Virus record (IMG/VR): IMGVR_UViG_3300014913_000009
Coordinates: 1 to 64,000 of that record
DNA from: a virus
Strand: one strand, 5' to 3'
Length of the DNA stretch: 64,000 nucleotides
Shown: positions 105-21,583 of the stretch, piece after piece
Position numbering within the stretch: the first letter of the stretch is position 1
Layout of the letters: each line of letters opens with the position of its first letter
Made by a program: the position numbers and the translations under genes
The notes under the pieces: generated by a model
Database searches by the model: none
Seen by the model: only the letters and a program-made list of their open reading frames with translations
What the model was told of the DNA's origin: nothing

Positions 105-1847
105 TTAGCTTCTTAATGCAACAAGTAAATTTCTAACATATTCTGATGGTTTGTCATCTTTGTTAGCAATTAAATGCTTATGAAGCAATTCATCACTCCA
201 TCCTTTTGCCGTTGTAATTAAAGCCATTTCACTTGGACTTATTTTCGTTCCGGATAACTTTCCTTTGTTGGTTGGATTTCCGGTATTGTCAAAATGACAA
301 TGTTCTGTATTGCATTTTATCGCTTTACTGGAATATTTATCAAGTACCATCCAATATAATGGAGCGACATATAGATCAGTTGCCTTTCCGTTCCAATCAA
401 CTTCTTTTGTTTTTCCATAACCTTCGTTATAGAGGTTGTGAAAATGAGAAGTTGGTTCAAAATGATCATAATGCATATGAAAATCTTGAATATCTTCTGC
501 TTTTTCATTTGCCATCATTTCGACAAGCATACCTAAATTTCGTCGTTTTAAAACGGCTAATGGTGATGTCGCACAATGAACATTTTTTGGAAATTGGTCA
601 TCAGGAAGAACAAATACAACACCTTTGCCACCAGCACGATTAGTGATTTTATCGCCGGTCTCCAAGGTATGAATTGTTTCGTATAATAAATAAACGCGAT
701 TATATTTCTTGCCTTGAAATAAATATGTAGTTATTTTCAAGTCTCTAATAACACCTTTGTCTATTTTACATATATATTTAGATGAATGACATCCAAGTCG
801 TTTGATCTTTTCATGTTTGGCTAAAACTTTGCCCTTTTCGACAATGTCTCCTATTTTGACCATCATCTTAAAATTGGAAATAGATTTTGGAACGAGAAAC
901 GTTTGTTCGTTTAGTTGTTTGACCGTAAGCATTTCGGAAGCGGTTTTGCTAATTGCAATTTGCTCCTTGTACGTAAGAAAGGGACATAGAATAGTCTTTA
1001 AATGCTTGCCACTTAATGTGCCTGTTATTTGAAATTCATCTCGCCTTCTTTTATGATCGTATTCCGGATGATGGCACCATGGATCTTCGCCATCAACTAC
1101 TTCAACAACACCATTTATGTTAGAGGCGGTCATCCGTCGTCTACTATATTCGGGAAACAATAAATTCTCATGTAATATTTGCGAATATTGTTTACCTCTT
1201 TTTATAAACATTCCATTATTGTCAATTTCCACATCTTTGCATTGATACATAGAAATGCCGACATTTTTACCTTGACTTTGAGTCATATAATCAAGTATGT
1301 TGCTGGCATCAAATATCGGCATTTGACTATTCCGCCCAATATTAGGAGTGTCTATAAATATCTTATTTGGATATAATTTATCAACTGGTGTGACATATTG
1401 TATACTTTTGTGAGTTTTAATGATACGCATTAATTCATATTGAACTCGATCCGGTTCAATCAAATATCCAAACAAATAATGATCTTCTAATGTACGATTA
1501 ATACTATCTCTTATACAACATGCAAGAATATCACATTCATCTATCATATAATAATCTGCAATTGATTTATCCCATGGATTATACAAAGGAGTTGGTTTTG
1601 CAATATTACATATTCTCAATTTTCCGTTTTCCATATGCAAAATATGATTTTCGTCTGGAATCGGCAATGTAAATATAATAGAATAATTGACTTGTTTGTC
1701 ATTTTCTAAATTCATTGTAAATTGAGCATTAGTATCTGAAATTCTAATTTCCGGATTACACATGTAGAACTGTCTGACCGGCGATAACAGTACTTGGAGT
1801 TTTCTTAGTATCTTTTTGACGTTGTCTACTAATAAAGTTTTGTCCAT
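105..1847 (-). CDS. RNA polymerase beta-subunit-like protein (DPBB/C-terminal part)
   Basis: 580 residues. It resembles the catalytic C-terminal half of multisubunit RNA polymerase beta. GDKITNRAGGKGVV at 398-411 aligns with the bacterial GDKMAGRHGNKGV signature, so both catalytic-centre lysines (K400, K408) are present. Upstream are RRRMTASN (~237-244, like R.LMG.N of beta), YKEQIAIS (like FEDAILIS) and VKIGDIVEKGKVLA (~330-343). Near the C-terminus ISPSEMALITTAKG matches the RFGEMEVWAL..YGA clamp region. The N-terminal lobes of a cellular beta are missing, so this is a split or minimal subunit as in phages with multisubunit RNAPs. It is transcribed after the beta'-like gene; its ATG lies 92 bp inside that gene, preceded by a weak GAAAGAA. 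It probably works with that protein in phage-promoter transcription. Whether it is virion-packaged is unknown. Confidence 0.85.
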   Translation of the reverse strand: MDKTLLVDNVKKILRKLQVLLSPVRQFYMCNPEIRISDTNAQFTMNLENDKQVNYSIIFTLPIPDENHILHMENGKLRICNIAKPTPLYNPWDKSIADYYMIDECDILACCIRDSINRTLEDHYLFGYLIEPDRVQYELMRIIKTHKSIQYVTPVDKLYPNKIFIDTPNIGRNSQMPIFDASNILDYMTQSQGKNVGISMYQCKDVEIDNNGMFIKRGKQYSQILHENLLFPEYSRRRMTASNINGVVEVVDGEDPWCHHPEYDHKRRRDEFQITGTLSGKHLKTILCPFLTYKEQIAISKTASEMLTVKQLNEQTFLVPKSISNFKMMVKIGDIVEKGKVLAKHEKIKRLGCHSSKYICKIDKGVIRDLKITTYLFQGKKYNRVYLLYETIHTLETGDKITNRAGGKGVVFVLPDDQFPKNVHCATSPLAVLKRRNLGMLVEMMANEKAEDIQDFHMHYDHFEPTSHFHNLYNEGYGKTKEVDWNGKATDLYVAPLYWMVLDKYSSKAIKCNTEHCHFDNTGNPTNKGKLSGTKISPSEMALITTAKGWSDELLHKHLIANKDDKPSEYVRNLLVALRS

Positions 1848-3297
1848 TTTTTATTCTTTCAGTAAGTGTGTTTAAAAGTGAATTAAATCCATTGTCTTCA
1901 ATCAATGCATTTAATGTATTAATTCTTTCTTCAAATCCTATTAACCCAGTATTTGAGACTGATGCATCATTAGAAAGAAAATGTAATGGACATCTATTTG
2001 TGATTATCTCACGAATAGTAATTTCATTACGTTCTATTTCTGTCATAAAATCAAAGAAGGGTTTGGATAAATTCTCATCAAGTATGCTTGATAGCAATGG
2101 CATTGTTGTTCTAACTGATAATTTGCTTTCGAGAAGATCAATAATAATTCCGAATCTTTTAGCCAATCCGTGCTTAGAATCAAACAATTCTTGCGATGCT
2201 CTTTCAATGATATGTGCAAATGATTTCATCAATGTAACATTTTGATCTGCGATCAACCATAGCATTTTGGCAAAATTGCCAATCATACCAATCCACAATT
2301 TACCAATAATTATGCCCGATGCTATTTCTAAATCACTTTCTCTTAGATCTTTAAGGTTACCATTAATCCATTTGTTTATATCATCTTTTTTGAGAGATTC
2401 GCAACAATCAAGAATATAATAAGTATCAGAATCTTCATTGAGAATATCTTCAGCGCATAATGAAAAATTATGTACTTCCATTATTCCTTCAATTTCTTCT
2501 TGATAATTATTAATATCTACCGGACCAAGACTTTCCCCAAGTTTCATCTCATGATCCCATTCGAGAGAAGTCCAATCTTCTTGAAGATTCATGCCTGGCA
2601 ATCCCATTAATCCAAATGCCCAATCTCCATCAAAATCGGCATTCATACCTTTCGTATAAGGTGGCGCCATACCAATTGTTGGCTTATCCCATTTTCGAAT
2701 GGTAAGTTTGCGAAAACTTTGATCGTGCAATACTGGCTGCCGAAAAACAATTGCCCATGCAAATTCTGTTGTTTCGCCACAATGTTTATAGAAATATTTT
2801 GCCATTTTTTTGTATATAGGTATTGGTAATGCGATTTCATCATATTCAATCCATGGACAATGACATATAACTCCTCGAAACGAACCTTCGGCACGATGAT
2901 TATATATATTGGTATTTAGCCGTCCTTTCTTGCCGGCAAGATCTAATGTAATGGCATTCCAATACAATCTTACATTAATCGACACTTGCTCATCATAAAA
3001 GTCAGGATCTTCTATATGATAGTCCTCCCATTCTCGAACCATATGAATAAGACGATCAAAATGAAATTGGATATTTGACAATACATATTTGTCATTTATG
3101 ATTTCTGGTTGTTGAGGGGGGATAAGAACATAATCTACTATTTTCCCGCTTGCATTTTCTATTTTGATTGGCAATTTAAATATGCCGCCATTTTTAATGC
3201 ATTCGTCAGTAAGAATATGATTTTCTATAGTCAAAACATCAATAGGATCTACCATCCTCTGGATATATTTCCCTATTGGTCTTAGTATTTTCTTCAT
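1756..3297 (-). CDS. RNA polymerase beta'-subunit-like protein (catalytic N-terminal part)
   Basis: 513 residues from the ATG at 3297, chosen over an upstream in-frame ATG because AAAGGAG lies 5 bp before it. It carries the universal catalytic loop NADFDGD (D221, D223, D225), which binds the active-site Mg2+. Ahead of it is RQPVLH (186-191), the counterpart of RAPTLH in bacterial beta', and a KGR...SFRGVI stretch like the KRVDYSGRSVI region. About 290 residues follow the metal loop. The bridge helix, trigger loop and downstream part of beta' are not obvious, so the rest may be encoded elsewhere. It overlaps the gene before it by 59 bp and the beta-like gene after it by 92 bp, suggesting translational coupling of the two subunits. 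Confidence 0.88.
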   Translation of the reverse strand: MKKILRPIGKYIQRMVDPIDVLTIENHILTDECIKNGGIFKLPIKIENASGKIVDYVLIPPQQPEIINDKYVLSNIQFHFDRLIHMVREWEDYHIEDPDFYDEQVSINVRLYWNAITLDLAGKKGRLNTNIYNHRAEGSFRGVICHCPWIEYDEIALPIPIYKKMAKYFYKHCGETTEFAWAIVFRQPVLHDQSFRKLTIRKWDKPTIGMAPPYTKGMNADFDGDWAFGLMGLPGMNLQEDWTSLEWDHEMKLGESLGPVDINNYQEEIEGIMEVHNFSLCAEDILNEDSDTYYILDCCESLKKDDINKWINGNLKDLRESDLEIASGIIIGKLWIGMIGNFAKMLWLIADQNVTLMKSFAHIIERASQELFDSKHGLAKRFGIIIDLLESKLSVRTTMPLLSSILDENLSKPFFDFMTEIERNEITIREIITNRCPLHFLSNDASVSNTGLIGFEERINTLNALIEDNGFNSLLNTLTERIKNGQNFISRQRQKDTKKTPSTVIAGQTVLHV

Positions 3298-3781
3298 CTT
3301 CGCTCCTTTGCTTAAAGTCAAGTGCCATACGCAGTTTTTGCTCTCCTGTTTGCCCTGCGCTATACTTCATAGACAATCTTACGCTATGATTGTCTTTACC
3401 AATACTTTCATAGTTCCATAATCCAAGATGTCGAATATCCATATTATTAAAATAGTCTGGAGGTGATATTATTCCAGGAATATTCATATTAAATGAAACC
3501 GAACCATCAGATTTTCGCCTACTCGGAACACCATGTATAAATACTTCTCCCGGAGTAGATTTCGTAAGATGTTGTCTTTTTATTTGCAATTTTGCAATTT
3601 CGGCATCTATTTGCTTAATTTCATCTGTTGGTTCTTGTGGTTTATATACTGGAAAAGACTTCATTGATCTCAGTACATGATTCGCGACTTCCTGTATATA
3701 ATCGCAAGTGTCAGGTCTTGGTTGCAACCAAAGTCTTTCTGATTGCATTTCGTCCATTATTTTGAATGCTATATTTGACAT
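3239..3781 (-). CDS. Protein of unknown function upstream of the RNAP pair
   Basis: 180 residues, hydrophilic, no family recognised. A short charged helical stretch (about 53-75, DEIKQIDAEIAKLQIKRQHL) suggests a small coiled coil. The C-terminal end overlaps the beta' start by 59 bp in another frame, so its expression is tied to the polymerase genes and it may be an accessory factor. That last point is inference from position only. The ATG at 3781 follows GAGAAAGGACATT, a reasonable ribosome binding site. Confidence 0.7.
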   Translation of the reverse strand: MSNIAFKIMDEMQSERLWLQPRPDTCDYIQEVANHVLRSMKSFPVYKPQEPTDEIKQIDAEIAKLQIKRQHLTKSTPGEVFIHGVPSRRKSDGSVSFNMNIPGIISPPDYFNNMDIRHLGLWNYESIGKDNHSVRLSMKYSAGQTGEQKLRMALDFKQRSEDEENTKTNREIYPEDGRSY

Positions 3782-7572: not shown

Positions 7573-7800
7573 TCATACAATCAAGGCCACTACTAAGAAT
7601 AATATTGAGAAACTGCCAATTAGACTGTTTCTCGAAATATTTCTCTTAATACTACCGAAGTTAAGTTCGGCCTCAATGAGAGTCTCTTCGTCCAAGTCTC
7701 TCTTTTTACGCTTGTGGTCATAATACCATAAACCACAAGATGCCAGCATTATTTCAATAACGAATGCCACAATCATCCACACTAATATTTCTGCAACCAT
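7573..7800 (-). CDS. Small two-pass membrane protein
   Basis: 75 residues with two hydrophobic segments (about 2-26 and 60-75) separated by a charged loop (KRKKRDLDEETLIEAE). GGAAGATATT precedes the ATG, and a pseudoknot leader (7818-7852) lies directly upstream. No family recognised. Confidence 0.7.
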   Translation of the reverse strand: MVAEILVWMIVAFVIEIMLASCGLWYYDHKRKKRDLDEETLIEAELNFGSIKRNISRNSLIGSFSILFLVVALIV

Positions 7801-7817
7801 AATATCTTCCTTTTCTT

Positions 7818-7852
7818 CATCAATTTTAAATGCGGATTGATGATAACCGCAT
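7818..7852 (-). promoter_or_regulatory. H-type pseudoknot leader, copy A
   Basis: On the mRNA: stem 1 AUGCGG (7852-7847) pairs with CCGCAU (7835-7830). Loop UUAU. Stem 2 CAUCAAU (7842-7836) pairs with AUUGAUG (7824-7818). It is followed at once by AAGAAAAGGAAG and the ATG of the 7573 gene. Stem 2 carries an A-U pair where copies B and C have G-C, a compensatory change. The position suggests control of translation initiation. Confidence 0.65.
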
Positions 7853-7853
7853 A

Positions 7854-7893
7854 TAAAAAATTAACCCGAGTACAAATCGTACCCGGGTTAATT
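7854..7893 (-). terminator. Rho-independent terminator
   Basis: A stem of about 15 bp (7861-7873 with 7879-7893, one G-U on the RNA) is followed by UUUUUUAUA on the minus strand. It ends the 7900 gene. Confidence 0.85.
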
Positions 7894-7899
7894 GAATTA

Positions 7900-8334
7900 T
7901 TATCTATCGCAATTCTCGCAATAGATATACACTTCTCCTCCGGCAATTGCCGGTTCCGATGTATCTAAGTACATCGGACCATGACACTTCGGACATATCC
8001 CGGAAGTGTCGGGTGACCTTTCTAATTCGGGGATTTCGTTTCTTTTGATTGTTCGAAGATACCACCCATCTTCCAATTTTTCGTCTCTTTGAACATCATG
8101 ACCAAATTTTCCGATCCAGTTTACTATTGTGTCTTCCGGATTATTGACTTTTGGTATAATACACCAGAAATTGTCCTCCTCTTCGAGGAAACCTCTTTTT
8201 ACAAACTTCACGAGGGCTTTCCCCTCGCCACCGGGAAGGTATGCGACAACAGCGTACCTCTCCCGAACTGTTTCGCCTTTTCCTCGAAATCCTCCGATTT
8301 CGAAGAACGAAATAGCTTCCAAGAAATTATTCAT
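7900..8334 (-). CDS. Protein of unknown function with C-terminal zinc ribbon
   Basis: 144 residues. The C-terminal ~35 residues form a zinc ribbon (CPKC ... YCENC). The N-terminal ~100 residues are mixed alpha/beta (VRERYAVVAYLPGGEGKALV, FWCIIPKV) with no motif I recognise. It is the last gene of a small group that includes the Csx16-like and macro-domain genes, each separated by a ribozyme/pseudoknot cassette. A role against host defence is possible by association only. The ATG at 8334 follows AAAAGGGAATGTT. Confidence 0.7.
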   Translation of the reverse strand: MNNFLEAISFFEIGGFRGKGETVRERYAVVAYLPGGEGKALVKFVKRGFLEEEDNFWCIIPKVNNPEDTIVNWIGKFGHDVQRDEKLEDGWYLRTIKRNEIPELERSPDTSGICPKCHGPMYLDTSEPAIAGGEVYIYCENCDR

Positions 8335-8350
8335 AACATTCCCTTTTCTT

Positions 8351-8382
8351 CGTCAATTTTATTGCGGATTGACGATAACCGC
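8351..8382 (-). promoter_or_regulatory. H-type pseudoknot leader, copy B
   Basis: mRNA order: stem 1 GCGG (8382-8379), loop UUAU, stem 2 CGUCAAU (8374-8368), stem 1' CCGC (8367-8364), linker AAUAAA, stem 2' AUUGACG (8357-8351). AAGAAAAGGG and the ATG of the 7900 gene follow. It lies immediately 3' of the hammerhead at 8397-8462. Confidence 0.65.
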
Positions 8383-8396
8383 ATATTAATATTGGC

Positions 8397-8462
8397 AAAT
8401 CTCATCAGTACCGGAATGCCAATCCGGCAGACCGACGCCGATACCAGCGTCGGTTTCGATTT
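8397..8462 (-). ncRNA. Hammerhead ribozyme, type II (canonical core)
   Basis: Read on the minus strand 5' to 3': stem II 5' AAAUC (8462-8458), GAAA (8457-8454), stem III CCGACGC / GCGUCGG (8453-8447 with 8438-8432, loop of 8), UC (8431-8430, cleavage after C), stem I UGCCGG / CCGGUA (8429-8424 with 8414-8409, one G-U), CUGAUGA (8408-8402), stem II 3' GAUUU (8401-8397). Every core nucleotide of the hammerhead consensus is present: G12, A13, A14, A15.1-U16.1, C17, CUGANGA and a G10.1-C11.1 closing pair. The stem I loop (AUUGGCA) can also pair with UGCCAAU just past stem II. It begins at the stop codon of the 8461 gene, so cleavage would separate that gene from the 7900 message. Confidence 0.85.
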
Positions 8463-8739
8463 AAATGTATTCTAATACCCAATTTTCCGGGTTGTTTCCC
8501 GGAACTCTACCACCAAAATCAAGATAGTACATTCTATCTATCTTTTTGGAAGAGAGCCCAATTTTGGCGGACTCGTATCCGCCATAACTATCGCTCTCGA
8601 ATGGGTTTATTTCGTATGTCTCTTCATCGACATATCCCAACATGCCGAGAAAATCAGCAACGGTGTCGATAGTGAAGTCATCTGGTTCTTCCCGACTTTC
8701 TACTTCAACGCCGTGAGCGTTATAAATTAAAACTTCCAT
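8461..8739 (-). CDS. Small acidic protein of unknown function
   Basis: 92 residues, acidic (MEVLIYNAHGVEVESREEPD...), with no transmembrane segment or catalytic motif visible. AAAAGGAAATATT precedes the ATG at 8739. It is flanked on both sides by the hammerhead/pseudoknot cassette, as if it were a single exchangeable gene unit. It lies between the zinc-ribbon gene and the Csx16-like gene. A defence-related role is possible but only by neighbourhood. Confidence 0.65.
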   Translation of the reverse strand: MEVLIYNAHGVEVESREEPDDFTIDTVADFLGMLGYVDEETYEINPFESDSYGGYESAKIGLSSKKIDRMYYLDFGGRVPGNNPENWVLEYI

Positions 8740-8755
8740 AATATTTCCTTTTCTT

Positions 8756-8787
8756 CGTCAATTTTATTGCGGATTGACGATAACCGC
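8756..8787 (-). promoter_or_regulatory. H-type pseudoknot leader, copy C
   Basis: Same fold as copy B: GCGG (8787-8784), UUAU, CGUCAAU (8779-8773), CCGC (8772-8769), AAUAAA, AUUGACG (8762-8756). AAGAAAAGGAAAUAUU and the ATG of the 8461 gene follow. The core sequence is identical to copy B, consistent with a recent duplication of the spacer. Confidence 0.65.
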
Positions 8788-8799
8788 TTTGAAATTGGC

Positions 8800-8863
8800 A
8801 TTCTCGTCAGTACCCGGGTGCCAGCCGGATAGACCGACGCCGATACCGGCGCCGGTTTAGAAT
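8800..8863 (-). ncRNA. Hammerhead-like ribozyme with altered core (degenerate sister copy)
   Basis: Same order as the 8397-8462 ribozyme: stem II AUUC / GAAU, stem III CCGGCGC / GCGUCGG with a G-U, UC, stem I UAUCCGG / CCGGGUA, CUGACGA. Stem I and stem II differ in sequence from the first copy but remain paired, so the fold has been kept by compensatory change. The GAAA box reads UAAA (8859-8856), however, so the catalytic G12 is replaced by U. A known hammerhead would be crippled by this. It is probably inactive or very slow. Confidence 0.6.
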
Positions 8864-8865
8864 TT

Positions 8866-9201
8866 TTAAATATCGTGAATATTTTCTAAAATGCACTTCG
8901 CGCTTTCCGGCGAAGACACTTCGAATTGTTTGACGGCATAGCGTCGGAGACTCATGCCGAATTGTTTCCACATGTCTTCTGCGGAGAATTCTTCTCCGCG
9001 GGGCGGAAATTTCTCGAATTCTACTGCGATATACACGCAGCAGAGGGAAGCTAAGTGCAGCGGCAAATTACCAATACACAAATTCCCGGCGACATCTGCC
9101 GGGATAGCATTTCCCGTGATGATGTCAAAATCAATCCCGCTATAGCGGGATGTAATGGCTTTTACGGTCGCCGGATGGCGACTGATAATTAAATTTCTCA
9201 T
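8866..9201 (-). CDS. Csx16-like protein, candidate type III CRISPR ring nuclease
   Basis: 111 residues, near the usual length of Csx16 (VVA1548 family). It shows the family layout: N-terminal strand plus RHP motif (NLIISRHPATVKAI, 3-16), the central IGNLPLHLASLC (about 53-64, family pattern IGTLP.hLA...C), and a C-terminal RGEEFSAEDMWKQFGMSLRRY (~78-98; family pattern RGrElt.eeM...Ga.L..y). Csx16 proteins accompany type III CRISPR systems and are regarded as nucleases of cyclic oligoadenylate second messengers. There are no cas genes here, so a phage copy would more plausibly act as an anti-CRISPR. The stop is 3 bp from the next cassette; the start is coupled to the macro-domain gene. Confidence 0.68.
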   Translation of the reverse strand: MRNLIISRHPATVKAITSRYSGIDFDIITGNAIPADVAGNLCIGNLPLHLASLCCVYIAVEFEKFPPRGEEFSAEDMWKQFGMSLRRYAVKQFEVSSPESAKCILENIHDI

Positions 9202-9203
9202 AA

Positions 9204-9647
9204 TTAAAATCCTTTCTTAAATTTGTATAAATACACATCTGATTTGCAGATGTTTTTAATTAAACTCATAATTTTATCGACTTCTCCGCCTCCAAGCCCA
9301 CAGCCTATCAGATATGGCATATGGAGAGTTTCTTCTCTCTCTTGGGCAAACTGGTCGACTTTTTCTAAACATACTGCTAAGTCTGCGTATGACACTCTCT
9401 GTCGATTTGTCCCTATGCCATCTTGTGCACACATATTGCACACATAGATCTCTGTGTCTACTTGAATTATTCGGATTTTTCCGAGTTCTTGTTTATTATC
9501 CCGAAAGACTTTTTCAGGAAAAGACCATTTTCGAGAAAGTGCTAACACAAATCCGGCACCCCATTTATTCACATTGTTCACAATATGGCATATGATGGCC
9601 GGTTTTTGAATTGGCGAAGTGACATCGCCTTTTATGATTTTGATCAT
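9204..9647 (-). CDS. Macro-domain protein (ADP-ribose-binding, Poa1-like)
   Basis: 147 residues from the ATG at 9647, which has GGAG 7 bp upstream; the ATG at 9659 overlaps that site. Macro-domain signature: IIKGDVTSP at the N-terminus, HIVNNVNKWGAGFVLALSRKW (~23-43, the ADP-ribose-contacting N..GAG loop), YLIGCGLGGGEVDKI near the C-terminus (the diphosphate loop). The class with a GCGLGGG loop includes ADP-ribose-1''-phosphate phosphatases and ADP-ribosyl-ester hydrolases. In a phage it could process ADP-ribosylated targets or nucleotide signals made by host defence, fitting its neighbour the Csx16-like gene. The exact substrate cannot be told. Confidence 0.85.
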   Translation of the reverse strand: MIKIIKGDVTSPIQKPAIICHIVNNVNKWGAGFVLALSRKWSFPEKVFRDNKQELGKIRIIQVDTEIYVCNMCAQDGIGTNRQRVSYADLAVCLEKVDQFAQEREETLHMPYLIGCGLGGGEVDKIMSLIKNICKSDVYLYKFKKGF

Positions 9648-9668
9648 TATTTTCTCCATTTATTTTGC

Positions 9669-9983: not shown

Positions 9984-10427
9984 TTACTTAAACTTTAACT
10001 GACGTTTGAGTTTTCGTAAATTTAGATTTACGATGCAAGAAATTCCCTGTTTGGAAACTCCTAACAAATCCCCTATTCGTTGATGGGAATATTCTTTGCA
10101 ACCAAATAAACCAAATTTCATAATTAATATTGCCCTATCACGCATTTTCATTTGCGCTAATAATTGGCGAAATATTTTATTAAGATGGTTTACATATTCA
10201 TTCATAAATACTTGGGATTTTAAGTGTTTATAATATAATTCGGCTGTTAGAATATCGACTTTCTCATGTCGACACTCTACACATATGTCTTGCTTTTCAT
10301 ATCCTTGCATATGATTACAATCCCATTTTTTTATTTTTATCGGCGTATAATGTACACGTCGGTAGAAATCTGTAGTATGGTTAGATTGCCCGCATTGCGG
10401 GCAATCTATAAACTTGAATTTTGACAT
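9984..10427 (-). CDS. Zinc-ribbon protein with sigma-70 region 4-like HTH
   Basis: 147 residues. N-terminal metal-binding part with CPQC (9-12), CNH (37-39) and CVEC (49-52). The C-terminal ~50 residues match sigma-70 region 4: MRDRAILIMKFGLFGCKEYS (94-113) followed by HQRIGDLLGVSKQGISCIVN, the helix-turn-helix that reads -35 elements, then an L..LKRQL tail. There is no region 2 and hence no -10 melting domain. Given phage-encoded RNAP-like proteins in the same window, it could be a specificity factor for them or an appropriator of the host enzyme. It overlaps the upstream gene by 1 bp. Confidence 0.72.
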   Translation of the reverse strand: MSKFKFIDCPQCGQSNHTTDFYRRVHYTPIKIKKWDCNHMQGYEKQDICVECRHEKVDILTAELYYKHLKSQVFMNEYVNHLNKIFRQLLAQMKMRDRAILIMKFGLFGCKEYSHQRIGDLLGVSKQGISCIVNLNLRKLKRQLKFK

Positions 10428-14579: not shown

Positions 14580-14774
14580 CTATTTCTTGAGTAATCCGCC
14601 CAAAAGGCAAACTACTCCAATGAGACCAATCCCATTGCTGGCAGTGAACAGTCCCTGTTGGGACATGAACATTGCCATCTCTAACTGACTCAGTCCAACT
14701 GGGATAGCAGACATAGATATGCCTATGGCTGCTACCACAGTTATAATACCTATGACAATTAATACGTATTTCAT
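14580..14774 (-). CDS. Small two-pass membrane protein
   Basis: 64 residues from the ATG at 14774 (AGGAGAAATATT upstream). The longer frame to 14804 runs into the leader hairpin. Two hydrophobic segments (MKYVLIVIGIITVVAAIGIS and the C-terminal GLIGVVCLLGGLL). Holin-like in size and topology, but with no family match and no lysin beside it, so left unnamed. Confidence 0.68.
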   Translation of the reverse strand: MKYVLIVIGIITVVAAIGISMSAIPVGLSQLEMAMFMSQQGLFTASNGIGLIGVVCLLGGLLKK

Positions 14775-14791
14775 AATATTTCTCCTGATAT

Positions 14792-14816
14792 GACAAGCAA
14801 GCATCGCTTGCTTGTC
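14792..14816 (-). promoter_or_regulatory. Leader hairpin (GACAAGC type), copy 1
   Basis: A perfect 11-bp stem (14792-14802 with 14806-14816, loop of 3) placed about 10 bp upstream of the AGGAG site of the 14580 gene. Related hairpins precede the 14909 and 17130 genes, so this is a second class of shared leader. Confidence 0.6.
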
Positions 14817-14830
14817 GTTTGAATAAAAAT

Positions 14831-14855
14831 ACAGACAAGAACTGTTCTTGTCTGT
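14831..14855 (-). terminator. 25-bp palindromic element, copy 1
   Basis: ACAGACAAGAAC / TGTTCTTGTCTGT palindrome between the 14909 gene and the leader hairpin. The same palindrome recurs at 15153, 17420 and 18416. On the minus strand it is followed by UAUUUUUAUU. Likely a terminator or 3'-end element. Confidence 0.65.
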
Positions 14856-14908
14856 AAAAAAACCCTTCTACTTGTTAGAGTGGGAGGTAGACCCCATGAT
14901 GGAGGAGG

Positions 14909-15100
14909 TTATTCCTCCATCAAATCCTCTCTGATTGTTTCTACTGTTGTCATCATGTCGGATAATTCCGACACGACGACGGCCGCTGTTTCTGTCGAAG
15001 GATTTATATCCTCCAACAGGAGATGTATTCTTCTCTTTAGTATCTGTAGTCTTCTGCTGACTACAGCCTTTGGTGTTGCCTTTGGTGTTGCCTTTTCCAT
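14909..15100 (-). CDS. Small helical protein of unknown function
   Basis: 63 residues, AGGAGAAATATC directly before the ATG. N-terminal direct repeat KATPKATPKA, a basic middle, then an acidic helical half (ETAAVVVSELSDMMTTVETI). No membrane segment. Confidence 0.65.
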   Translation of the reverse strand: MEKATPKATPKAVVSRRLQILKRRIHLLLEDINPSTETAAVVVSELSDMMTTVETIREDLMEE

Positions 15101-15117
15101 GATATTTCTCCTGATAT

Positions 15118-15138
15118 GACAAGCGATGCTTGCCTGTC
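15118..15138 (-). promoter_or_regulatory. Leader hairpin (GACAAGC type), copy 2
   Basis: A shorter, imperfect version of the 14792 hairpin, in the same position relative to the AGGAG of the 14909 gene. Confidence 0.45.
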
Positions 15139-15152
15139 GGTTGATTGAATAT

Positions 15153-15173
15153 AGACAAGAACTGTTCTTGTCT
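15153..15173 (-). terminator. Palindromic element, copy 2
   Basis: AGACAAGAAC / TGTTCTTGTCT, the inner part of the shared 25-bp palindrome. The outermost base pair is lost by a C-to-T change. Confidence 0.6.
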
Positions 15174-15182
15174 GTAAAAAGT

Positions 15183-15208
15183 CTCTCCCACTCGTTAGAG
15201 TGGGAGAG
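15183..15208 (-). terminator. Hairpin terminator
   Basis: A perfect 11-bp stem (15183-15193 with 15198-15208, loop GTTA) followed by ACUUUUUA on the minus strand. No clear gene ends here, so it may end an untranslated RNA or a lost gene. Confidence 0.7.
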
Positions 15209-16075: not shown

Positions 16076-17119
16076 CTATTCCTCGTCCTCTTCCTCCTCT
16101 TCTTCCTTTTCTATTTTTACGCCCGACTCCAACAGGAACCGGGCGGCCTCCACAAATCCTTCCTCTATTGCTACTCTCATTTCCCACCCGTAATCTCCAG
16201 AATTGAGGTCTATCCAACCCCCTTCTACGAGGGTCTTTATCATGGGCACACTTCCCAGCGCGTACAGCAGCGCTTGACATGGAAGATCGCCACCTTCCTC
16301 CAACATTAACTGAACCAGACGGCAGTGTCCCGCCCTGATGGCACGGAGGACATCCTCCTCGTCAATTAATGATGCACGAGACCTTGATTCGATCAGGGTC
16401 CGTGAGATGCACTCACATCCCATCCTCACGGATGTGGAGAGGTGCTCTGAAGATGCACGCCCTCCGAACTCAAGAGCGAGATGAATCATAGAAACGTTCC
16501 CACTCTCAAGTGCGTCCTCCATGATGTCTCCCTCATAGTCGGGAGTCCTCTCCAACAGCATCCGTGCTGCGAGGACATTCCCCGATCTTACCTCTCTGTT
16601 CACCTCCATGCCCGAAAGTGGGCATTCAAGTGACTCTAGTATCAACCGGAGGCATTCCACCCCCTGCAGGCTGCCTCCTTGACAGTATCTTATCGCCTGC
16701 GCGAGTGAGCTCTTGTTCTTGCCCGCTCCTCGCTTGAGGAGCAGGCGGACGATCTCAGTATGACCATGGAACGAGGCCCATCTCAAAGGACCCCCCTCGT
16801 CGAAGTGTATACAAGCCCCTGCATCAAGGAGCATGCGAACAGCACCCTCCCTGCCCTCCGTAGAGGCACTAACAAGCGCCTCCCCCAGGGTCTCGTTCGA
16901 AAAACAAGACTCTTTTAAAAGCATCATGAGGATGCTTTCCTTTCCACGCCATGCTGCCGTCAAGAATACCGTCTTGACGGCATCTTTCGACACCCCTCTT
17001 GCGAGGATAGTCTTTACGACAGATTCTCGTCCGCCGTATGAGGCCTTGATAAGGCCTCCTTCCAACACCCTCGTGGGGATGTTGTTTGCCATCAACTCAA
17101 GTGTGAGTCGACGATCCAT
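16076..17119 (-). pseudogene. Ankyrin-repeat protein, main part of a frameshifted gene
   Basis: 347 codons of degenerate ankyrin repeats, about ten units. The best are GREGAVRMLLDAGA, HGHTEIVRLLLKRGA and EGFVEAARFLLESGV, ending in a poly-Glu tail. The ATG at 17119 has no ribosome binding site. The frame stays open upstream through HWDLIREVSG, which matches the GWLGWLMARR region of the intact ankyrin gene at 17509. The missing N-terminal part is the separate 65-codon frame at 17130-17327. One base less in the C8 run (17187-17194, plus-strand G8) would join the two. It is therefore a single ~1250-bp gene that is broken, phase-variable or read by slippage. Confidence 0.75.
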
Positions 17120-17129
17120 TCCTGAGACC

Positions 17130-17327
17130 TCACGAATGAGGTCCCAGTGGGAGTTCTCTCTCGCAAGAGTCTCCCCCCATCTTCTTGGGGGGGGAGATAT
17201 GAGGTTTTACATCAAGGAATTCCCTGATGGAACATCCATCAGGGAATATATCGTTGAATGTTTCTGTCGATTCTTCCGAGAGATCGACAGAATGCATGTT
17301 CTTAAAATATCCTTTTGTGATCTTCAT
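17130..17327 (-). CDS. N-terminal fragment of the frameshifted ankyrin gene
   Basis: 65 residues from the ATG at 17327, preceded by AGGAGAAAATGTT. It starts MKITKGYF and contains FNDIFPDGCSIREFLD, aligning with MKITIDLL and FDKHFPDGCTVPELLE at the N-terminus of the intact ankyrin protein at 17509. After the C8 run the frame goes out of register (PPKKMGG..) and stops at 17130. As read, it is a short truncated product. With one C fewer it would continue into the 16076 frame. Confidence 0.7.
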   Translation of the reverse strand: MKITKGYFKNMHSVDLSEESTETFNDIFPDGCSIREFLDVKPHISPPKKMGGDSCERELPLGPHS

Positions 17328-17347
17328 AACATTTTCTCCTGTAATAT

Positions 17348-17373
17348 GACAAAGCAAGCATCGCTTGCTTGTC
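17348..17373 (-). promoter_or_regulatory. Leader hairpin (GACAAGC type), copy 3
   Basis: A long imperfect stem (GACAAAGCAAGC / GCTTGCTTGTC) upstream of the AGGAG of the 17327 start. Confidence 0.55.
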
Positions 17374-17410
17374 GGTTGCTTGTCGGTTGCTTGTCGGTTG
17401 CTTGTCGGTT
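17367..17410. repeat. Four tandem 11-bp repeats
   Basis: GCTTGTCGGTT repeated exactly four times, an expansion of the outer arm of the leader hairpin. The copy number could vary between strains and change the leader fold. Confidence 0.85.
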
Positions 17411-17415
17411 GAACA

Positions 17416-17508
17416 AAATACAGACAAGAACAGTTCTTGTCTGTCATACTCTCTATTGGGGTGATTTCGTCCATACGGAGAAATCCCCACATGGTGTCTC
17501 TTTACATC
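17416..17508. repeat. 93-bp direct repeat, copy 1
   Basis: Matches 18412-18504 base for base by eye. It contains the 25-bp palindrome (17420-17444) and a copy of the last 18 codons and stop of the DFDGD polymerase-like gene. It ends one base before the stop codon of the ankyrin gene at 17509. Confidence 0.85.
17420..17444 (-). terminator. 25-bp palindromic element, copy 3
   Basis: ACAGACAAGAACAGTTCTTG plus TCTGT, within the 93-bp repeat, downstream of the ankyrin gene at 17509. Confidence 0.6.
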
Positions 17509-18312
17509 TTACGCTCCATTCTCAACAAGCAGTTTGACGACTGCTAAATGTCCGTTCCTCCTCGCCCAACGCAACGAGGAACCGTGATTTTCATTCGTAT
17601 TAGCCCCTCCTTTTATTAGTAGTTTCGCAATTTCTGCGTATCCATTTCTCGCAGAAAGATACAATGCACGCCCTTTAAACGCGTTAACATCTGCACCGCT
17701 CTCAAGGAGCAGTTTTACAACTTCAGGGTAATTACCAATCACTGCCCAGCGCAGTGGATCTCCGTCTATAACATCCGCATCCACTCCCGCCTCAAGGAGC
17801 AACCTCACGATTGCAGTGTGTCCGTTTTCAGCGGACGAACACAATGCCCAATCATAATGGGCGTTTATACCCATCTCTATCAGCAATTTCACAATTGCAG
17901 TATGCCCGTATACAGCGGATAAATGTAATATGGAGTCTATATCCACCCCCATCCCTATCAGCAATTTCACAATTGCAGTATGCCCGTTTTTCGCCGACAA
18001 ATGCAACACATGATTATTGTGGGCGTGAACATTCGCGCCATTCTTGAGCAGCAGTTTTACAACCGCTATATTCCCGTGTTCCGCTGCATCTCGCAACGCC
18101 CAATCGTCTCTGACATGAACGTTTGCACCTGCATCAAGACAAGCCTGGGTTATATCGACCCGCCGTGCCATTAGCCAACCCAGCCATCCGTTATTGTCGA
18201 GTTTTTCGAGCAGTTCTGGTACGGTACACCCGTCCGGGAAATGCTTGTCGAACCAGTCAATGCCAGATTCACAGGCTTTGAGTTCTATTAATAAGTCAAT
18301 TGTGATTTTCAT
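17509..18312 (-). CDS. Ankyrin-repeat protein
   Basis: 267 residues. The N-terminal ~45 residues (MKITIDLL.., FPDGCTVPELLE, GWLGWLMARR) form the capping domain shared with the broken neighbour. About seven ankyrin repeats follow (HGNIAVVKLLLKNGANVH, NGHTAIVKLLIGMGVDID, YGHTAIVKLLIEMGI, NGHTAIVRLLLEAGVDAD, NYPEVVKLLLESGADVN, NGYAEIAKLLIKGGANTN, NGHLAVVKLLVENGA). No signal peptide. Ankyrin repeats bind proteins. In phages they are uncommon and have been linked to host or eukaryote-facing interactions; the target here is unknown. The leader is pseudoknot copy D, and 93-bp direct repeats flank the gene, suggesting acquisition by recombination. Confidence 0.92.
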   Translation of the reverse strand: MKITIDLLIELKACESGIDWFDKHFPDGCTVPELLEKLDNNGWLGWLMARRVDITQACLDAGANVHVRDDWALRDAAEHGNIAVVKLLLKNGANVHAHNNHVLHLSAKNGHTAIVKLLIGMGVDIDSILHLSAVYGHTAIVKLLIEMGINAHYDWALCSSAENGHTAIVRLLLEAGVDADVIDGDPLRWAVIGNYPEVVKLLLESGADVNAFKGRALYLSARNGYAEIAKLLIKGGANTNENHGSSLRWARRNGHLAVVKLLVENGA

Positions 18313-18328: not shown

Positions 18329-18364
18329 CCATCAATTTTAAAACGGATTGATGGTTAACCGTTT
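18329..18364 (-). promoter_or_regulatory. H-type pseudoknot leader, copy D
   Basis: mRNA: stem 1 AAACGG (18364-18359) with CCGUUU (18346-18341). Loop UUAA. Stem 2 CCAUCAAU (18354-18347) with AUUGAUGG (18336-18329). AAGAAAGAAAAAAAAU and the ATG of the ankyrin gene follow. A-U replaces G-C in stem 1 relative to copies B and C, and stem 2 is one pair longer. Confidence 0.65.
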
Positions 18365-18378
18365 TTCCTGTTTGGAAA

Positions 18379-18411
18379 TAAAAAACCTTGACTACAATTG
18401 TAGTCAAGGTT
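18379..18411 (-). terminator. Rho-independent terminator
   Basis: A 24-bp perfect palindrome (18386-18409) followed on the minus strand by UUUUUUA. It ends the transcript of the DFDGD gene before the ankyrin leader. Confidence 0.9.
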
Positions 18412-18504
18412 AAATACAGACAAGAACAGTTCTTGTCTGTCATACTCTCTATTGGGGTGATTTCGTCCATACGGAGAAATCCCCACATGGTGTCTCTTTA
18501 CATC
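18412..18504. repeat. 93-bp direct repeat, copy 2 (parent copy)
   Basis: Spans the last codons of the 18449 gene, its stop and the 25-bp palindrome (18416-18440). It matches 17416-17508. This is the likely source copy because it encodes the in-frame C-terminus. Confidence 0.85.
18416..18440 (-). terminator. 25-bp palindromic element, copy 4
   Basis: Same palindrome as copy 3, 9 bp past the stop of the DFDGD gene and upstream of the U-tract terminator at 18379. Confidence 0.65.
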
Positions 18505-21500
18505 CCCACTTGGAGAGTATGTCGGCGACATTTCGTTCGCCAACATTATAATCCCGATTTCTATTCTCGGGATTATCCGTAACGAAGGAGCACCCTTTAT
18601 GGAGTGCATCCATCACTCTCTCCACGGGGAGTGGTGCCCTGTCTTTCCTCTTTCCGTTTACGGAAATAAACAGGACCTTATTCTCCTCCCCATTCCAGTT
18701 GGGGAGATTTTTGACATATCTGCCAGTACTCCCCTTGGAGTCTAGATTTGCCAAAAGGAGATCAGAACGATCCCATTTTGCCTTATCCTTTTCTCCATAT
18801 TTCCCCTGGAAGATTTCCTCCGCAGGGGATCCAAATTCAATCTCATTGGACATTGCATCCAATGAGATTTTGGGAGACCATTCAGGGTTACTCATACGAC
18901 CCCCAATGATCGCCCACACTCCCATCGGAACAATCTGTTCGACGAGAGACCATGGATGAACATTTTCACCCATAGCATAAGGCTTGCCGCTCTTATCGCG
19001 GTTTACCTTAAGAGTTCTATCTTCAAGATAGAACTTCTTAATCCTACCTTTCGTATTGCGCTCGGCGAGACTCATCGAGCGTAATATGCAGATTAGATAG
19101 AACTCAATTGAATGAGGCATATCAATCAAGTACTGTTTGATAGCCTCTATTTGCTGGCTATTATATTTAGAGTCACTTCTAAACATGCTAGCCCAAATAT
19201 CAAATAAGGACATTACCGACATTCCATAGCCGTCAATATCCTTCTCCGAATTCAAACGCCCCTGCATAAGGCGTTCACGTGCCTTACCTCGAACATTCTT
19301 GACGGCTGGGCGTTTAGACCACAACTCTATCAAGAGGCTCGAGACGGCATTATAAAGCCCCACATTATCCTCTGCTCCGAGGGTGGGACTTTTAATGACA
19401 GAGTACATCTGAGCGAGCCTTCCAAAATGAGGCTCCTGGATGTTGCTCCATTTATGACAATTCTCGACTACTTCCTTGTAGCCAAGAATTGTCGAGGTTT
19501 CACCAATCACCCGCTTCTCTGCGAGCGATTGGACTTCGGGGGACGCATCTTTCGATGGGCCCTTTATATATTTATAAAGGGAAGCATCTTCATGCATCCT
19601 CCAAATCGAGGGGCTTCTCTTGCCCCAATTGTCGGGAATTCTATTCCCGAAAGTTCGAGCCAGAATTTTGTCTGGCTCGACCTTGCAACCCAAGAACTGT
19701 TGACATTCGTCTCTAAACAGATCTGGGTTGATAATAACGCCATCCAACTTATGTTTCAATAAGTTGATAGCGACCTGAACCTTCATGGTCAATCCATAAA
19801 GGCTCGAGGCACATGATATGAGATCAAGTCCCATATCATGTGCCTTAGAAAATAGGGATGAGAGTATATTATCATATACTCCAATCCCATTAGTTTGGAC
19901 ATCCATGATCATGTCACGAACGCCCTTCCAACCCCAAGACTCACTCCGCTTGGTGGTCGGAGTGTCAAGCCCATCAGCATAAACATCTTTCGATGCTCTG
20001 ACGGACTTAACAATACTCAGATTCATTGCATGCAACTTAGACCAAGTCGCAGGCAACAAATCAACATGGGACACATTAACTGCATCTCCATCGAAATCTC
20101 CTCGACATAATATCGAGAAGATTTCCGGATTTACACTCATTGCGTTTGAGTGTGAACCCTTAACCTCCCTGGCTACGACGATAGATCCCGCCGTGACCAG
20201 TGGGGAACGTGTCATCATGACGTTCCCCTTGCGAGGTTTCATCCCACCAGGAATGGCAATAATCGTATTGCCACCCCGAAATGGGGGGATACATGGGTCG
20301 GGCATCACATAAGCATAAATGCCACGAACTCTTACATTCGCAGCCTTATGATGCAATGCCTTCCCCATTGCGCTCTCACCATATATGCCCGCGACATGAC
20401 ACTTCATGCCGGGAACATTCATAGCGAAAGCGCCTTTTGTATTGGCATCCACTCCGAATGCCTCATACATGAGCTGGTAATCAGCCCATTTGCCGCCAAT
20501 ATTGACGGCATGAACGCCCCGCGCCAATTTCTCGCACGTGACGTACGTTTTAGCCATCAAATCCTCGACCGAGGCATTATCCGGCATATTGCGGATGATT
20601 TGAGAACTCATTTTTACTGAGTTTCCAACATCCTTAATTTCAGAGATGCATGTAATTGCACCTCTTTTGGCACCACTACCAGTGGACTTTATATTCCACG
20701 GGCTAATAGTCCCAAACTCTGCCGACAATCCCAACCGGGACATCAGCAAAGAAATGAAAGTACTGGAACCACATAGCCCTTTGGCTATGTCAATTCCAGT
20801 TTCTCGAAGTTGTACGGCACGCAGCTGTACAACCTCATCTTTGGGCTCAACATTATATATGTTAAGCCCGTCGAAATATTTATCGCCAAATTCGACAAAC
20901 ACTTTTTCAGTGCTGTCGAACTGAGATAAATATTCTCCTATAGTAACAATGTCACTATAGGCTGGCATTGTCATCCAATCGGACGGCAATGCCTTCTTGA
21001 TGGAACGATTGGCACTATTGTACCATTTGTTCCATCTCCCTTCGGCAATTGTAGACACGATAATTTTTATCGCATCCTCCTTGCCGAAACGAGACAATGG
21101 AAACAAGTCCATTGTCTCGAATTTATAACTTGTCACCTCCCTGCAAGGTGACAACAGGAGCCGCGTATAAATCGCTTCATACACGGCCTTGAAACCCCCA
21201 GGTATGAGGGTTTTAAACTCACCCCGGTTTAGGAGGATGAATTGCTCACCCTTCATATCCGGGATTAATACCGCCACTTTACTGACGGTCCTGAATATGC
21301 TCCCAAGACGACTCTCGAGAGCATCGTCTACACGGGCCCTGACCCATGCAGACATCTTTGCAGGTTCGTCCTGGGGACACCTGTCCCACAGTTCGTCCCG
21401 GACAAGGGCTTTTACACCCTTTATGGAAATAGTAGCAAGTTCCTGACGCTTGCTACCAAGGATTGAAAGGATATGTTCTAAAACACGCCCTTTCACTTCA

Positions 21501-21583
21501 ATCGACCCCACACACGTGAGGTCGATTTTCAATCCCATCGACTTAAATAGAACCTCGAAGGTCCTATTTACTAAATTCTTCAT
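18449..21583 (-). CDS. DFDGD-motif polymerase-like protein (two-barrel RNAP superfamily)
   Basis: 1044 residues. CRGDFDGDAVNVSHVDLLP around D496, D498 and D500 is the Mg2+-binding loop of the double-psi-beta-barrel polymerases. Before it comes VMMTRSPLVTAGSIVVAREV (455-474), matching the [KR]sP...G.I.V segment that precedes DxDGD in cellular RNA-dependent RNA polymerases, YonO-like and crAss-like phage RNAPs. A long helical region (520-640) follows, as in those single-chain enzymes. The first-barrel lysines are not certain; SVKMSSQIIR (322-331) is a candidate. It could thus be a complete single-chain RNA polymerase, separate from the beta/beta' pair at 0.1-3.3 kb. AAAGGAGAAATT precedes the ATG. 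Its leader contains a type III hammerhead. Confidence 0.75.
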   Translation of the reverse strand: MKNLVNRTFEVLFKSMGLKIDLTCVGSIEVKGRVLEHILSILGSKRQELATISIKGVKALVRDELWDRCPQDEPAKMSAWVRARVDDALESRLGSIFRTVSKVAVLIPDMKGEQFILLNRGEFKTLIPGGFKAVYEAIYTRLLLSPCREVTSYKFETMDLFPLSRFGKEDAIKIIVSTIAEGRWNKWYNSANRSIKKALPSDWMTMPAYSDIVTIGEYLSQFDSTEKVFVEFGDKYFDGLNIYNVEPKDEVVQLRAVQLRETGIDIAKGLCGSSTFISLLMSRLGLSAEFGTISPWNIKSTGSGAKRGAITCISEIKDVGNSVKMSSQIIRNMPDNASVEDLMAKTYVTCEKLARGVHAVNIGGKWADYQLMYEAFGVDANTKGAFAMNVPGMKCHVAGIYGESAMGKALHHKAANVRVRGIYAYVMPDPCIPPFRGGNTIIAIPGGMKPRKGNVMMTRSPLVTAGSIVVAREVKGSHSNAMSVNPEIFSILCRGDFDGDAVNVSHVDLLPATWSKLHAMNLSIVKSVRASKDVYADGLDTPTTKRSESWGWKGVRDMIMDVQTNGIGVYDNILSSLFSKAHDMGLDLISCASSLYGLTMKVQVAINLLKHKLDGVIINPDLFRDECQQFLGCKVEPDKILARTFGNRIPDNWGKRSPSIWRMHEDASLYKYIKGPSKDASPEVQSLAEKRVIGETSTILGYKEVVENCHKWSNIQEPHFGRLAQMYSVIKSPTLGAEDNVGLYNAVSSLLIELWSKRPAVKNVRGKARERLMQGRLNSEKDIDGYGMSVMSLFDIWASMFRSDSKYNSQQIEAIKQYLIDMPHSIEFYLICILRSMSLAERNTKGRIKKFYLEDRTLKVNRDKSGKPYAMGENVHPWSLVEQIVPMGVWAIIGGRMSNPEWSPKISLDAMSNEIEFGSPAEEIFQGKYGEKDKAKWDRSDLLLANLDSKGSTGRYVKNLPNWNGEENKVLFISVNGKRKDRAPLPVERVMDALHKGCSFVTDNPENRNRDYNVGERNVADILSKWGCKETPCGDFSVWTKSPQ

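Follow-up and report, generated by a model that had tools for sequence, protein, structure and literature searches.

A type II hammerhead ribozyme behind a phage stop codon, in a position where sister leaders are preceded by a terminator

Between two small genes on the minus strand of a phage genome we found a sequence that is supported as a type II hammerhead ribozyme by covariance model, predicted fold, core and potential tertiary contact. We consider it probable (about 75%) that this ribozyme, copy B, is functional, with cleavage after C8430 giving an upstream message its 3' end and a downstream message a 5'-OH start. Its most likely role, judging from the sequence and by analogy with published tandem phage hammerheads (PMC3088659), is the processing of a polycistronic message. 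The window analyzed here is a 64 kb stretch of the IMG/VR record IMGVR_UViG_3300014913_000009, which is 90 kb long. Copy B belongs to an already known kind of phage element: Perreault et al. described natural type II hammerheads with a loop I pseudoknot in 2011, including tandem phage hammerheads which flank single genes (PMC3088659), and the role of phage hammerheads has been a question since. What is added here is a rule of placement next to stop codons and the interchange of hammerhead and terminator ahead of a repeated leader. Coordinates of the features are collected in Table 1.

Table 1. Features of the hammerhead locus and of related leaders in the window
Feature	Positions	Strand	Basis
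Copy B, intact type II hammerhead ribozyme (predicted), stop codon nucleotides in stem II	8390..8463	-	RF02276, MFE fold, core
Predicted cleavage site of copy B, C17 (8430) / N1.1 (U8429)	8429..8430	-	Sequence and hammerhead numbering
3' flank GCCAAU, complementary to loop I AUUGGC of copy B	8391..8396	-	Computed complementarity
Copy A, hammerhead-like, all stems kept, CUGACGA, G12 to U (8859)	8793..8868	-	RF02276, fold, descriptor scan
ORF, 144 aa, downstream of copy B, C-terminal CxxC...CxxC (zinc-ribbon-like)	7900..8334	-	ORF call
ORF, 92 aa, between copies A and B	8461..8739	-	ORF call
ORF, 111 aa, upstream of copy A, Csx16 (Cas_VVA1548) family	8866..9201	-	Pfam PF09652 E 6e-7; PADLOC Csx16 E 8e-6
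H-type pseudoknot leader of the 144-aa ORF	8350..8383	-	Pseudoknot scan, pair table
H-type pseudoknot leader of the 92-aa ORF	8755..8787	-	Pseudoknot scan, pair table
H-type pseudoknot leader of ORF 7573-7800, terminator upstream	7817..7852	-	Scan; stem 2 G-C to A-U
H-type pseudoknot leader of ankyrin-repeat ORF 17509-18312, terminator upstream	18329..18364	-	Scan; double changes, both stems
Intrinsic terminator between the 144-aa ORF and the next leader	7859..7893	-	16-bp stem then TTTTAT; fold z -6.4
Terminator-like hairpin ACCTTGACTACAATTGTAGTCAAGGTTTTTT upstream of the ORF 17509-18312 leader	18379..18410	-	Read from sequence

The core of copy B is complete by the type II pattern (C3 U4 G5 A6 N7 G8 A9, then G12 A13 A14 A15.1, then U16.1 H17), with CUGAUGA at 8408-8402, GAAA at 8457-8454 and UC at 8431-8430 of the minus strand. 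Stem III pairs 8453-8446 with 8439-8432 and is closed by A15.1 (8454) and U16.1 (8431), stem I pairs 8429-8423 with 8415-8409, and stem II is formed by AAAUC (8462-8458) with GAUUU (8401-8397), giving 10 pairs in stem III, 7 in stem I and 5-6 in stem II. In the MFE fold stems I and III are closed by loops while stem II is open. A preliminary description of the window had proposed a hammerhead at 8397-8462, and every element named there is found on the minus strand. This includes a stem II that begins in a stop codon, its first two A's being nucleotides of the TAA at 8463-8461, and a stem I loop able to pair with the flank past stem II (UUGGC with GCCAA, 8396-8392). By computed complementarity, 5-7 pairs are possible in this putative pseudoknot. 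The published type II consensus includes such a contact of loop I with the tail, and hammerheads of this type need it for speed (PMC3088659).

A search with the Rfam type II model had been suggested in the same description as a check, and RF02276 matched positions 8461-8390 with 37.4 bits against a gathering cut-off of 37, a margin of 0.4 bits (E=5.6e-4 for the 64 kb searched with all 4227 families). Searched alone against the 90 kb record, the model gave E=1.8e-7 for copy B, the only match above the cut-off. The unconstrained MFE fold is a three-way junction of -29.3 kcal/mol; shuffled sequences averaged -18.8 (sd 2.8, z -3.7), with none of 200 equally stable. In 1.23 Mb of phage loci a strict descriptor found no hammerhead once the sequences had been shuffled.

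The TAA in stem II ends the 92-aa ORF, and 126 bases separate it from the 144-aa ORF. Read 5' to 3' on the minus strand, this gap contains copy B and, after a short A/U stretch, an H-type pseudoknot; an AAGG resembling a Shine-Dalgarno sequence then precedes the ATG. The 92-aa ORF has no match in Pfam, PHROG or PADLOC and belongs to no known family; modelled alone by AlphaFold it reached a pLDDT of 53, and the model was set aside. The 144-aa ORF shows a weak match to an Ogr_Delta-like zinc finger (E 0.1) and likewise belongs to no known family.

A scan for H-type pseudoknots over both strands of the record found this leader four times, always on the minus strand and just before a start codon, including two copies (7852-7817 and 18364-18329) that the preliminary description did not contain. 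Its claim that a pseudoknot leader follows the ribozyme is borne out by pair-preserving changes among the four: G-C to A-U in stem 1, and U-A to C-G and G-C to A-U in stem 2. These pairs were tabulated by script from a hand alignment, as MAFFT had misplaced a gap in the leader of ORF 17509-18312. No Rfam family was assigned to the leader at E up to 1 in the region 8300-9300, a weak test given that covariance models hold no pseudoknots; sub-threshold matches to Gl_U2, snoU83B and anti-hemB were taken as chance. An exact pattern scan found no copy elsewhere in IMG/VR, and the single match to a looser pattern lies inside an open coding region and was judged to be chance.

The slot between the previous stop codon and the leader is occupied by strong intrinsic terminators ahead of the leaders that begin at 18364 and 7852 and by hammerheads ahead of those that begin at 8787 and 8383. 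With two of the four leaders after hammerheads and two after terminators, the hammerhead takes the slot of a terminator, and nothing else at the locus speaks as directly for function as this interchange. One could instead see the leader as the operative unit, with the pseudoknot binding a phage protein or a ligand to co-regulate translation of the four genes and the hammerhead merely trimming its 5' side. Regulation of translation by a leader pseudoknot has a precedent in T4 gene 32. Such a role is compatible with message processing, and the four copies with their pair-preserving changes, in front of genes unrelated to one another, speak for it, as does the 96% identity of the leaders at the two genes whose hammerheads are only 79% identical. 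Against it stand the lack of an Rfam family and of any copy found by pattern elsewhere in IMG/VR, and we consider it doubtful.

The hammerhead ahead of the 92-aa ORF, copy A, was absent from the preliminary description. It lies about 400 bases upstream of copy B, and both copies lie on the sense strand of a series of minus-strand genes. Its placement is like that of copy B, 5 nt past the TAA of the Csx16 gene and ahead of the leader of the 92-aa ORF, so that a stop codon is found 2-5 nt upstream of both copies. RF02276 gave copy A 32.2 bits, under the cut-off of 37; its fold has a z of -2.4 with all three stems present, the predicted site is C8832/U8831, and loop I and tail are complementary (UGGCA/UGCCA). 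Differences between the copies nearly all preserve pairing: in stem I two pairs are altered on both sides and two on one side, in stem III two pairs are altered on one side, and four pairs of stem II are kept when read by eye without the gap introduced by MAFFT.

Copy A is nevertheless probably dead or very slow, since U replaces the general base at position 12. A G12A change slows the full-length hammerhead about 10^6-fold (PMC2553840); an effect of U at this position was not found in the literature searched. Copy A is a diverged sister which has probably lost catalysis, and it offers a natural experiment in which hammerhead structure is preserved without the general base. With one core mismatch permitted, a descriptor scan of these phage loci (1.23 Mb) gave copy A as the sole variant next to 131 perfect cores, and all 45 hammerheads in loci from bacterial genomes have a perfect core; as most surveyed loci were chosen by a perfect-core pattern, the unbiased sample consists of their additional hammerheads and is smaller than these totals.

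These data bear on two other readings of the pair. A cassette of hammerhead and leader may have been duplicated and be in decay, with copy A dead and copy B persisting without function. The G12U change, the size of the G12A effect (PMC2553840) and a copy B score barely above the cut-off all fit such a relic. Loss is not the rule, since nearly all stem changes preserve pairing, the stems of copy A still fold and no other core variant turned up in the hammerheads surveyed, which makes a relic rather unlikely. The presence of exactly one gene between two type II copies also suggests that paired hammerheads could excise the intervening RNA, with the 92-aa ORF, and ligate it into a circle. But copy A has no G12, and when Perreault et al. 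examined tandem phage hammerheads for circular or spliced RNA they saw no such product (PMC3088659), so that we regard circularization as highly improbable. The loss of G12 in the sister and the narrow score margin of copy B count against the message-processing role of copy B as well; the former could mean that selection for cleavage is not strong here. Promoters within the leaders, should they exist, would make cleavage redundant.

If message processing is the role of copy B, the transcribed RNA would fold with stem II built partly from the stop codon, dock loop I against the flank and then cut itself after C8430. The upstream message would end shortly past its stop codon with the closed stem III hairpin and a 2',3'-cyclic phosphate. 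A 5'-OH and the stem I hairpin would open the downstream message, which would continue through the pseudoknot leader, the Shine-Dalgarno sequence and the 144-aa ORF as far as the terminator. Cleavage would thus be the counterpart of the terminators at the sister leaders in splitting transcripts, and both new ends would gain a hairpin which may be protective. We infer that such cleavage takes place in vivo and that it may affect expression of the genes on the two sides and make it independent. The preliminary description expected single-gene messages. For the downstream piece this holds, as only the 144-aa ORF lies between U8429 and the terminator at 7893-7859. For the upstream piece it is doubtful because copy A has lost G12: the RNA ending at C8430 may hold several genes, namely the 92-aa ORF and the genes preceding it if copy A is dead, and would hold the 92-aa ORF alone if copy A cuts.

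A pattern scan of IMG/VR for type II hammerheads returned at least 119 stretches, and in the stretches listed most hammerheads start directly after a stop codon. The matches listed comprise 121 distinct sequences, 117 of them preceded by an ORF of 60 codons or more, which ends no more than 8 nt away in 70% of these cases compared with 3.6% for shifted positions. Counted by upstream gene family among the matches listed, 61 of 89 fall within 8 nt. An ORF of at least 40 codons ends 0-10 nt before G12 in 105 of the 130 IMG/VR hammerheads listed (81%; control 6.9%). Loci from bacterial genomes, probably prophages, behave similarly (32 of 42 stop-adjacent; control 7.1%), though the two collections may have some prophages in common. 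Stop codon nucleotides enter stem II in copy B and in only 27 of the 130 others listed, and adjacency rather than overlap is therefore the rule. An SD-like motif with a start codon follows within 110 nt in 111 of the 130 listed and in 29 of 42 bacterial loci (36% expected), which is commoner than chance, not sharply so. Together these counts suggest that a position right behind the stop codon is a general habit of phage type II hammerheads. Stop codons go unmentioned in the text of Perreault et al. (PMC3088659), and a literature search, with subscription papers mostly outside its coverage, found no later paper with this rule.

In these collections the distance from stop codon to G12 has a sharp peak at 2-3 nt, although the many upstream genes are not related to one another. 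With a stop codon that touches stem II or reaches into it, a ribosome could hold the ribozyme open. The 3' edge of a ribosome extends about 12 nt beyond the stop codon. A terminating ribosome would then cover GAAA and the start of stem III, and the ribozyme would fold and cut only once the ribosome has left, timed by upstream translation rather than constitutively. Such gating would refine the message-processing role rather than replace it. It draws on the sharp peak and on the stop nucleotides in stem II of copy B and the 27 others, but compact phage genomes that place a processing signal nearest to the ORF end would give equal spacing, and we hold gating to be rather improbable. The stop-codon rule (an ORF ends no more than 10 nt away in about 80% of the matches listed, compared with 7%) and the terminator interchange make a testable statement, that phage hammerheads form message ends, possibly gated by translation. 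A broader proposal, tentative and less likely than not, is that phage type II hammerheads are a general substitute for terminators at the stop codon, coupling translation termination to ribozyme folding. If true, departure of the last ribosome permits the cut that finishes the message, and the phage studied here displays the swap directly, with the same leader behind a ribozyme at two genes and behind a terminator at two others.

Copy B shares with RF02276 and the published type II hammerheads (PMC3088659) the permuted architecture, the open stem II, the core CUGANGA...GAAA...UH, the A15.1-U16.1 pair, the potential loop I pseudoknot with the tail after stem II, the phage context and the tandem copies around single genes. 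Perreault et al. showed that tandem phage hammerheads cleave in vitro within native transcripts of about 2 kb and that a set from Agrobacterium cleaves in E. coli, and proposed messages of operon or single-gene length (PMC3088659). Mu-like members of RF02276 score 62-66 bits compared with 37 for copy B, and this locus differs from members of the family in its A/U-rich stem II which takes in the stop codon, its G12U sister and the repeated H-type pseudoknot leader after the hammerhead. In the Mu-like Pseudomonas phages D3112 and MP38 a hammerhead also lies directly at the orf16 stop, on the coding strand and before a small ORF. Unlike the present phage, about 180 nt separate the orf16 stop from the next annotated ORF, a single hammerhead copy was found in the stretch, and these are temperate transposable phages.

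Dense arrays of hammerheads between consecutive phage genes were seen in seven IMG/VR stretches (L055, L060, L066, L073, L079, L081 and L121), with 4-11 per stretch and 2 in L073, in a regular order of stop codon, hammerhead and SD. L081 holds 11 in 5 kb; L055 has 8, and L066 has 5 with the 2 of L073 in a neighboring stretch. In these four, as at our locus, a hammerhead stands behind the stop of nearly every gene, followed by SD and start codon usually 10-60 nt on; in contrast to our locus every core is intact and a leader of the type in the window was not seen. Few of the 89 upstream families have a Pfam name, among them ArdA (2 families), Mu Gam and Csx16. As Perreault et al. also had cases at ardA, this hints at a possible association of hammerheads with counter-defence genes.

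The gene upstream of copy A encodes a protein of the Csx16 family, which likely serves as counter-defence against type III CRISPR; Csx16 is a cA4-specific ring nuclease that turned up in only 2 of 28,114 phage genomes (PMC12409355). Directly upstream of it, at 9204-9659 (-), is a gene for a macrodomain protein (PDB 5e3b E 3e-21, phrog_335), possibly part of a counter-defence cluster with Csx16. IMG/VR yielded no relatives of the locus when queried with the Rpb1-like protein, a 345-aa ORF and the 92-aa ORF; a terminase search found one contig (53% identity) that has neither a hammerhead nor the polymerase gene. A sigma-70 promoter scan gave 26 sites with 18 expected and was not informative.

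Parts of a multi-subunit RNA polymerase are encoded on the minus strand, with an Rpb2_6 match at 105-1847, an Rpb1_2 match with NADFDGD at 1756-3321, and a second motif, GDFDGD, in a 1044-aa ORF at 18449-21583. A sigma region 4-like protein is encoded at 9984-10427. Two ankyrin-like ORFs lie within 16076-18312 (-), and the one at 17509-18312, behind the fourth leader, has strong ankyrin repeat matches. A perfect 93-nt direct repeat is found at 17416 and 18412, and palindromic elements (ACAGACAAGAACTGTTCTTGTCTGT and others) occur in several copies near gene ends, at 14769-15206, 17417 and 18413.
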